The translations under genes and the position numbers were made by a program. Shown here one piece after another: positions 24,293 through 25,568 of a stretch of DNA of 35,354 nt. This DNA comes from Terriglobia bacterium (GTDB taxonomy: Bacteria; Acidobacteriota; Terriglobia; UBA7540): the NCBI GenBank assembly GCA_020073545.1, contig JAIQEZ010000043.1, positions 1 to 35,354 of the forward strand. The letters are read 5' to 3'. Each line of letters opens with the position of its first letter. Position 1 is the stretch's first letter. The notes under the pieces are model-generated. The model worked only from the letters and a program-made list of their open reading frames with translations. It was not told where the DNA came from and searched no databases.

Positions 24293-24321
24293 TTGTCTCG
24301 CTGCAGGGAATAAGCTAGGAT
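24293..24321 (+). promoter_or_regulatory. Promoter of the moaA leader
   Basis: TTGTCT (24293-24298) and TAGGAT (24316-24321) are separated by 17 nt. Transcription would start near 24328, exactly where the first paired segment of the riboswitch begins. Confidence 0.5.
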
Positions 24322-24327
24322 GGAAGT

Positions 24328-24457
24328 GTTCTCCGAGCCCGCGACGCTAACGGAGCATCACAATCCCAGGCGCGCTGGGCCGATAGGGTGGCGCGAGAAA
24401 TCGCGTCGCCTCCCGTGTTTGGAAAGGAGAACGCCGCCGGCTCCAAACACGAGCCGG
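24328..24457 (+). ncRNA. Probable molybdenum-cofactor (Moco) riboswitch
   Basis: A dense set of stems lies in the leader of moaA. The long-range pair is GTTCTCC (24328-24334)/GGAGAAC (24426-24432). A local CTCCG/CGGAG pair (24331-24335/24351-24355) competes with it. CCCAG/CTGGG pair at 24365-24369/24375-24379. A 10-bp hairpin capped by a GAAA tetraloop spans 24387-24410. GTGTTTGG/CCAAACAC pair at 24415-24422/24443-24450. The phrases CTCCGAGCC, the GAAA-capped stem and GTGTTTGGAAAGGAG agree with what I remember of the Moco RNA motif. Position in front of a Moco synthesis gene supports it. Confidence 0.78.
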
Positions 24458-24467
24458 TTTCTTGTTT
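24437..24467 (+). terminator. Riboswitch expression-platform terminator
   Basis: CCGGCTC (24437-24443) and GAGCCGG (24451-24457) form a perfect 7-bp stem followed by TTTCTTGTTT. The terminator loop (24444-24450) is the 3' arm of the riboswitch stem GTGTTTGG/CCAAACAC, so the two structures exclude each other. This fits control by premature termination when cofactor is plentiful. Confidence 0.75.
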
Positions 24468-24486
24468 GGGGCGCTTAGTCCGAGTG

Positions 24487-24570
24487 ACAGGGAACAGGTT
24501 ATAGGTGACAGGAAATAGGGAGCTGTCGACTCCCTTGTTGTCTCACTATAACCTGTCACCTGTTCCCTGT
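24487..24570. repeat. Inverted repeat between the riboswitch terminator and moaA
   Basis: ACAGGGAACAGG (24487-24498) is exactly complementary to CCTGTTCCCTGT (24559-24570). Related units (GGTGACAGG and CCTGTCACC, TATAGG and CTATAACC) lie inside. The moaA ATG follows 12 nt later without a clear ribosome-binding site. Confidence 0.6.
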
Positions 24571-24581
24571 AACCTAACCTT

Positions 24582-25568
24582 ATGCTGCGTGATAAGTTCG
24601 GGCGGGAAATTCACGACCTGCGCATTTCGGTGACGGACCGCTGCAACTTCAGTTGCGTTTACTGCAAGTCCGCGGATCCGAAAAACTACTTCCCGCACCG
24701 CGACCTGCTGACGTGGGAGGAATTCCTGCGCCTCAGCCGCGTCCTGGTGGGCCTGGGTATTCGCAAAATCCGCGTAACCGGCGGCGAGCCGCTGCTGCGC
24801 GCCGGCGTCGTCGATTTCATCGCGCGCCTGCGGCGGCTCGACGGGCTAGCCGACCTGGCGCTCACCACCAACGGCTACCTGCTGCCGGAGATGGCTCAGG
24901 AGCTCGCGGCCGCGGGCGCCCCGCGCGTCACCGTCAGCCTGGATTCGACGAATCCCGAAAAGTTCGCGAAGATCACGCGCACGCCGCGCTCCTACGAGAA
25001 AGTGATGGCCGGCATTGACGCTGCCCTGGAAGCGGGTTTGCGCCCGGTGAAAGTGAACATTGTTCTGGTGCGCGGCTTCAACGACGACGAGATCGCGGAA
25101 TTCGCGCGCTTGGCGCGCCGCCGAAATATCCTGGTGCGATTTATTGAGTTCATGCCGCTCGATGCCGACCACGCCTGGAGGCGCGAACTGGTGATTACGG
25201 CGAAGGAAATTGTGGACGCCATCCAGCCCGTGTTTCCGCTCGTGGAAATCCCACGCCACTCACCCAGTGAGACGGCGCTACGTTACCGGTTCGCAGACGG
25301 CCAGGGCGAGCTTGGCATCATCGCGCCCGTTTCGATTCCTTTTTGCGGGCAGTGCAGTCGCATCCGCGTGACGGCTGACGGCAAGCTGCGCACTTGCCTT
25401 TTCTCGCTGCGCGAGCACGACGTGCGGCACCTGGTCCGCAACGGCGCCACCGACCAGGATATCGCGAGGTTCATGGAAAAAGCCGTGCACCAGAAGGAGC
25501 CCGGCCACCGCATCAACGAGCCGGATTTCGTTCAGCCTTCGCGCACCATGGTTTACATCGGAGGGTGA
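24582..25568 (+). CDS. moaA: GTP 3',8-cyclase MoaA
   Basis: 328 residues, close to the family length. It is a radical-SAM enzyme for the first step of molybdenum cofactor synthesis, turning GTP into 3',8-cyclo-GTP, which MoaC then converts to cPMP. The SAM cluster motif C-x3-C-x2-C is at Cys21, Cys25 and Cys28 ('DRCNFSCVYCKS'). 'VTGGEPLLR' follows, and the second [4Fe-4S] cluster has C-x2-C-x13-C at Cys255, Cys258 and Cys272 ('FCGQCSRIRVTADGKLRTC'). The chain ends in the conserved double glycine ('YIGG'). Expression is probably governed by the riboswitch upstream. No other moa gene is in the window. Confidence 0.97.
   Translation: MLRDKFGREIHDLRISVTDRCNFSCVYCKSADPKNYFPHRDLLTWEEFLRLSRVLVGLGIRKIRVTGGEPLLRAGVVDFIARLRRLDGLADLALTTNGYLLPEMAQELAAAGAPRVTVSLDSTNPEKFAKITRTPRSYEKVMAGIDAALEAGLRPVKVNIVLVRGFNDDEIAEFARLARRRNILVRFIEFMPLDADHAWRRELVITAKEIVDAIQPVFPLVEIPRHSPSETALRYRFADGQGELGIIAPVSIPFCGQCSRIRVTADGKLRTCLFSLREHDVRHLVRNGATDQDIARFMEKAVHQKEPGHRINEPDFVQPSRTMVYIGG

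Follow-up and report, generated by a model that had tools for sequence, protein, structure and literature searches.

What controls moaA, the gene for GTP 3',8-cyclase, in this soil acidobacterium, and to which cofactor would its leader respond? An initial annotation of the locus had placed a Moco-type riboswitch with a mutually exclusive terminator in front of the gene. The whole stretch of DNA analyzed, referred to as the window, spans 35,354 nucleotides and constitutes contig C32 of an incomplete genome (G000; 5.28 Mb, 261 contigs, 95.5% complete), and the riboswitch locus is labeled L001. The presence of a riboswitch and terminator before moaA was confirmed, and the earlier interpretation was supported in part, being right in kind and corrected in direction and in the certainty of the ligand. 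The element is a new example of the Moco riboswitch family, an RNA switch of known type and ordinary in itself.

Riboswitch aptamer and gene context

The whole window was scanned against 4227 RNA families using cmscan. The sole match was to RF01055 (Molybdenum/Tungsten riboswitch aptamer) on the forward strand at 24319-24445 (72.4 bits, E = 8.4e-16, model positions 1-135), well above the gathering score of 36 bits and present as a single copy in the genome. A covariance-model search was the check that the initial annotation had named, and the match is significant. The multi-stem RNA described there is likewise borne out, as the region 24319-24475 folded with -74.8 kcal/mol (z -3.54) and none of 200 shuffles was as good. 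The proposed target gene was verified downstream on the same strand as moaA (24582-25568; TIGR02666, 374 bits with a cut-off of 284). Among named records, the nearest MoaA proteins come from metagenome-assembled acidobacteria that mostly carry the label Terriglobia. Membership in RF01055 is indicated by the score, by the presence of stems P1, P2, P4 and P5 with the conserved core, by the position before a molybdopterin/Moco gene, and by a switchable expression platform.

Alignment to the RF01055 model and the computed fold defined the individual stems, all on the forward strand. P1 is formed by 24326-24334 and 24426-24434, also seen in the family alignment described below, and encloses P2 with its internal and terminal loops (24337-24380) and the P4 hairpin (24386-24411). 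P4 pairs 24386-24396 with 24401-24411 around a GAAA tetraloop (24397-24400); the GAAA-capped hairpin claimed from the sequence is therefore present, with 11 base pairs in the fold rather than the 10 first counted. The P5 element CCCGTGTTTGG (24412-24422) serves, according to the RF01055 alignment, the fold and covariation, either as aptamer P5 (CC/GG) or as the 5' arm of an antiterminator. The conserved core (CUCCGAG, AGGG and UUUGGAAAGGAG) is complete. The P3 columns of the model are empty (deleted in the cmscan alignment), with P2 and P4 separated by just a few bases, and the P3 stem was absent in the window as in all nine riboswitch-bearing members of its taxonomic family (f1). RF01055 was found in nine of the 39 f1 genomes; a further genome, G015, has the 3' portion at the end of a contig. 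moaA lies directly downstream on the same contig at eight of the nine loci, and the ninth locus is truncated by the end of its contig. The nine species were combined into a family alignment (A1), in which the core is mostly invariant; departures occur chiefly in the degraded copy of G003, and G replaces A in the GGAG of the core in four rows.

Two features of RF01055 aptamers in the wider phylum were observed in passing. The base following CUCCGA, which forms the basal P2 pair, was mostly G in P3-less aptamers (56/73) and C or U in P3-bearing aptamers (86/95), counts taken from 177 RF01055 matches (L001-L070, L101-L206) before later class overrides and including some mis-anchored rows. The link is broken by f9, f24 and f50 (G with P3) and by f12 and f18 (C or U without P3). 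In family f10, repeat-like inserts (GCGGTTA...TAACCGC or TTGACCGC) lie within the P2/P3 part of the aptamer at L040, L023 and L161; L023 scores just 33.2 bits, so some f10 aptamers may be broken by mobile repeats.

Competing terminator and antiterminator helices

An intrinsic terminator was identified at 24436-24467 on the forward strand, with a stem of 24436-24443 and 24451-24458, a loop of 24444-24450, and a U-rich tail, TTTCTTGTTT, that extends to 24467. The terminator scan returned three terminator-like sites on both strands of the scanned region compared with 0.6 per shuffle. Within P5, GTGTTTGG (24415-24422) is perfectly complementary to CCAAACAC (24443-24450), most of which sits in the terminator loop. 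The full antiterminator pairs 24412-24422 with CCAAACACGAG (24443-24453, forward strand) and contains one C.A mismatch, 24413 with 24452. The terminator and the mutual exclusion through GTGTTTGG and CCAAACAC proposed from the sequence were thus both upheld, the terminator and antiterminator each covarying in the nine f1 species. The same pairing had been taken for the last riboswitch stem; it is instead the antiterminator, whose 5' arm is the conserved P5 element in the RF01055 alignment.

Conservation of the two helices was examined in the nine-species alignment. The 11 pairs of the antiterminator were formed in 96% of 99 cells, and both partners had changed in two of them (U-A to C-G in G003 and G-C to A-U in three g10/g13 genomes). 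The terminator helix was paired in 91.7% of 72 cells with three pairs changed on both sides, and P1 with P5 in 91.6% of 95 cells. Covariation scores were reached by 2 of 500 shuffles for the antiterminator (0.232), by none of 500 for the terminator (0.365), and by 6 of 500 for P1 with P5, figures that are not probabilities because the alignment rows are related. Sliding the partners by one to three columns reduced paired cells to at most 53% for the antiterminator and 46% for the terminator, and slid versions of the antiterminator scored at most 0.096.

Kinship is better handled by a within-family swap test, in which the P5 of each locus is paired with its own downstream strand and with the strands of its relatives' loci. 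Own pairing was more stable in f1, where 5 of 2000 permutations equaled it. The same held for f6, a family of the window's class whose aptamers bear P3 (58 loci, 31 distinct P5 strands), with none of 2000 reaching it. The best sites in f6 fell 36-42 nt downstream at 45 of 58 loci, with 6.5% expected. In f6, as in the window, the terminator loop is complementary to P5 and coevolves with it; the f6 RNAs differ in having P3 and in the position of the complementary strand, approximately 39 nt into the scanned downstream stretch compared with approximately 10 nt at the window's locus. No signal was obtained in the negative-comparison families f40 (1663/2000) and f55 (583/2000), and the test was not significant in f9 (3 loci, 666/2000) or f10 (29 loci, 112/2000). 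The signal in f1 and f6 indicates that competition of a terminator loop for P5 is a design common to two or more families of the class, whether or not the aptamer has P3. At the level of single loci, an ungapped 11-nt complementarity test recovered the antiterminator at p <= 0.01 in 7 of 8 f1 loci and in 10 of 172 loci overall, while a gapped duplex test was positive at 13 of 174 loci (f1 5/9, f6 6/58, f9 0/3; 3 loci skipped), with 4 of 200 shuffles as good at the window locus. Since positives outside f1 were few, the per-locus tests are weak there and the swap test was relied upon.

The conservation of these helices also bears on whether moaA might be controlled mainly at translation, or by a structure close to its start codon, and not by the terminator. 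Between the terminator and moaA, a long imperfect inverted repeat (24484-24575, forward strand) could form a strong hairpin of -44.6 kcal/mol that ends 6 nt before the ATG, and control of E. coli moaA has been reported at translation (PMC2408646, PMC10845959). However, moaA leaders of relatives showed no such hairpin, whereas the terminator and antiterminator pair is conserved. Furthermore, the P1 3' arm lies approximately 150 nt from the ATG, whereas at L043, a P3-less locus of another family, a GGAGG falls in the P1 arm just before an ATG. Control acting mainly at translation or through this hairpin is accordingly considered very improbable, and attenuation at the terminator is the preferred reading. 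The repeat has arms of up to 34 nt (GTGACAGGGAACAGG...CCTGTTCCCTGTAAC), and short arms related to it occur at eight other places in the genome. No obvious Shine-Dalgarno-like sequence was found just before the moaA ATG, and the repeat may have displaced the ribosome-binding site.

Predicted promoter and proposed mechanism of attenuation

The promoter claimed from the sequence (-35 TTGTCT at 24293-24298, a 17-nt spacer and -10 TAGGAT at 24316-24321, forward strand) is weak by generic criteria, falling below the threshold of a generic promoter scan that found no site on the forward strand, but the pattern is kept between species. A TTGNNN-17/18-TANNAT arrangement occurs at the matching place in 9/9 f1 riboswitch loci and in 4/4 moaA leaders of the same genus without the aptamer. 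The between-species comparison was consequently used as promoter evidence in place of the generic scan. The initial annotation had put the transcript start exactly at the first paired base. From the -10 box, transcription is predicted to start at approximately 24328; the first P1 pair is at 24326 in the window's fold and at 24328 in the part conserved across f1.

Folds of the growing transcript are consistent with a decision between the two helices. P1 holds once the RNA reaches 24434. At 24452 the antiterminator (-60.9 kcal/mol) and P1 (-60.2 kcal/mol) ensembles are nearly equal, and at 24458 P1 with the terminator (-70.7 kcal/mol) outweighs the antiterminator (-61.6 kcal/mol), these being energy-model values that exclude ligand, tertiary contacts and kinetics. 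An alternative hairpin with TTGTTTGG, 3' of the terminator, takes over as the lowest-energy fold when the RNA extends to 24473; it was treated as an accident because the downstream TTTGG is not conserved in the f1 alignment.

In the proposed mechanism, RNA polymerase would start near 24328 and make the P3-less aptamer of P1, P2, P4 and P5. With a cofactor bound, whether a molybdenum or a tungsten pterin, P1 and P5 would be locked, leaving CCAAACAC free so that the terminator at 24436-24467 forms and moaA is off. When the cofactor is scarce, the P5 strand CCCGTGTTTGG would capture CCAAACAC just before the 3' arm of the terminator is complete, opening P5 and P1, blocking the terminator and allowing moaA to be transcribed. 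Because the antiterminator uses up P5 and crosses P1, bound ligand should cause termination and its absence transcription, in agreement with the feedback repression by Moco reported for the E. coli family member (PMC2408646) and opposite to what would follow if GTGTTTGG and CCAAACAC formed a stem of the aptamer. Given the family membership, the gene context, the two competing and covarying helices, and their near-equal computed stability at the decision point, a transcription-attenuating riboswitch of the Moco family probably controls moaA.

Loss of the riboswitch within the genus

The strength of the switch in the window differs from that of its relatives. At completion of the antiterminator, its lead is approximately 0.5 kcal/mol in the window and 0.8 kcal/mol in G003, of the same genus, whereas the seven f1 members from other genera show leads of 3.3-10 kcal/mol. 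The small lead in the window is due to the C.A mismatch, which destabilizes the antiterminator; the terminator has an additional pair. By these energies the switch may lean toward OFF or may work poorly.

moaA was found in six of nine same-genus genomes, the other three giving no match at E <= 1e-40, and only the window's locus has an intact switch. The aptamer of G003 is degraded, scoring 40.9 bits and differing at conserved core positions, although its contig starts 72 bases upstream and an assembly error is possible. G001 has kept the promoter and terminator and lost the aptamer. In G004, G005 and G007 the promoter is kept with moaA right behind it, and both aptamer and terminator are gone. 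A moaA tree grouped G003 with G001 (98/96) and G004 with G005 and G007 (99/99), both groups apart from the window's genome, which is most simply read as two or more losses. The loss or degradation at the other five loci, together with the mismatch in the window's antiterminator, could mean that the window's element is itself a relic that no longer regulates moaA. This appears unlikely, as drift would be expected in a neutral relic, whereas the window's aptamer retains 72.4 bits with an intact conserved core and both competing helices can form. A functional attenuator thus remains the favored reading of the window's locus.

Other features were observed in these genomes. At L076 (G001), a perfect TATAAT lies between the leftover terminator and moaA and might represent a new promoter by which the orphan terminator is bypassed. 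A gene of the formate dehydrogenase alpha type containing a single in-frame TGA occurs in five same-genus genomes (L237 on G003:C634, L238 on G001:C59, L239 on G005:C95, and on G004:C286 and G007:C134). The context NNIDSCNRT[TGA]HAPSVAGL, read in three of the five, looks like that of a selenocysteine codon. In these same five genomes the riboswitch is lost or degraded; the window's genome yielded no copy with a TGA.

Ligand specificity and the P3 stem

The label Moco-type given to the locus was accurate as to family and too specific as to ligand, as the P3-less form has been assigned to the tungsten cofactor, yet the tungsten genes searched for were not seen in the genome. Regulski et al. (2008) found 58 of 176 RF01055-type members to lack P3, observed that 17 of the 19 organisms with such RNAs carry tungsten-cofactor genes, and proposed that these RNAs sense the tungsten cofactor, Tuco (PMC2408646). 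The phylum Acidobacteriota is not mentioned in the main text of that paper.

In order to compare P3 status across the phylum, 177 RF01055 matches in 150 genomes were classified. Classes were assigned automatically and corrected on visual inspection for L202 and, at a later stage, L052, L163, L117, L119, L142 and L201. This yielded 51 genomes with only P3-less aptamers, 90 with only P3-bearing aptamers, four with both, and five that were unclassified and left out (G055, G086, G193, G225 and G348); sub-threshold matches of the class in G145 and G240 were not among the survey sequences. PF01314 (aldehyde ferredoxin oxidoreductase, a tungsten enzyme family) was sought along with PF02738 in 80 of the 150 genomes, comprising all 51 P3-less-only, the four mixed, and 25 of the 90 P3-only genomes, hand-picked to spread over families. 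PF01314 was present in 34 of 51 P3-less, 1 of 25 P3-bearing, and 4 of 4 mixed genomes. Counted by taxonomic family, the values were 9 of 15 and 1 of 9, respectively (Fisher p 0.033). In broad terms, the 2008 association between P3 and tungsten holds in this phylum.

The window's own class departs from this pattern. None of the 11 P3-less genomes of the class (f1, f3 and f12), the window's genome included, has PF01314, and it is likewise absent from the P3-less genomes of f17, f47 and f18. The window's genome contains two MoCoBD_1 matches, of which the one scanned is xanthine-dehydrogenase-like, along with NuoG and, on contig C4, a formate-dehydrogenase-like protein below the cut-off (335 vs 666 bits); a tungsten formate dehydrogenase may be present. 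PBP_like_2 (PF12849) matches were PstS only, with no TupA-like protein seen, and PF13531 matches comprised one truncated 191-aa frame and one PotC/PotD-type fusion. The absence of PF01314 from P3-less genomes of the class, with molybdenum-type genes here, indicates that the lack of P3 does not show tungsten sensing in the window's genome.

The same attenuator could nevertheless respond naturally to Tuco, as proposed for P3-less members. The absence of P3 throughout f1, the 17 of 19 organisms of the 2008 study (PMC2408646), and the phylum-wide distribution of PF01314 argue for this reading, while the lack of PF01314 in the window's class, the PstS-only result for PF12849, and MoCoBD_1 matches that point to molybdenum argue against it. 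Tuco is therefore regarded as a real but less probable candidate, with Moco the slight favorite for the window. A broader proposal, held tentatively and at somewhat less than even confidence, is that P3-less aptamers of this acidobacterial class sense Moco, and that loss of P3 is not the source of tungsten specificity, which would lie elsewhere in the core.

Comparison with known systems and implications

The leader of E. coli moaABCDE (RF01055) resembles the window in its core, in P1, P2, P4 and P5, in its GAAA-capped P4, and in its place before moaA. It differs in carrying P3 and in being described as acting on translation (PMC2408646, PMC10845959), whereas the window has a terminator platform; transcription termination at the E. 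coli locus has also been reported with TaRTLEt (PMC12121620). The P3-less ("Tuco") RNAs of Regulski et al. (2008) are similar to the window in lacking P3 and, in some cases such as S. wolfei, in being followed by terminators (PMC2408646); they differ in being reported to go with tungsten genes, whereas in the window's genome PF01314 is absent and no TupA-like protein was seen. PMC2408646 already describes the family, its P3-less form and platforms of the terminator type. One paper states that the exact metabolite had not been identified (PMC10845959), and a review that cites the 2008 paper counts MoCo (WCo) as a variant class (PMC7266159). PMC2864571 names both the riboswitch and Acidobacteria, and on the riboswitch it only cites the 2008 paper. 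Among the papers listed from an open-licence library, no title or abstract opening concerned this riboswitch in Acidobacteriota.

The locus provides a compact attenuation model, supported by covariation, for a riboswitch class whose ligand recognition is still indirect. One genus displays several stages of switch loss at the same gene. In addition, the aptamer lacks P3 although the tungsten genes that were sought were not seen in the genome, which puts to the test the 2008 rule linking P3 to molybdenum sensing and its absence to tungsten sensing. If the P3-less aptamers of this class do sense Moco, the 17 P3-less genomes without PF01314 would form, beside the 34 with it, a natural comparison set for locating the specificity.
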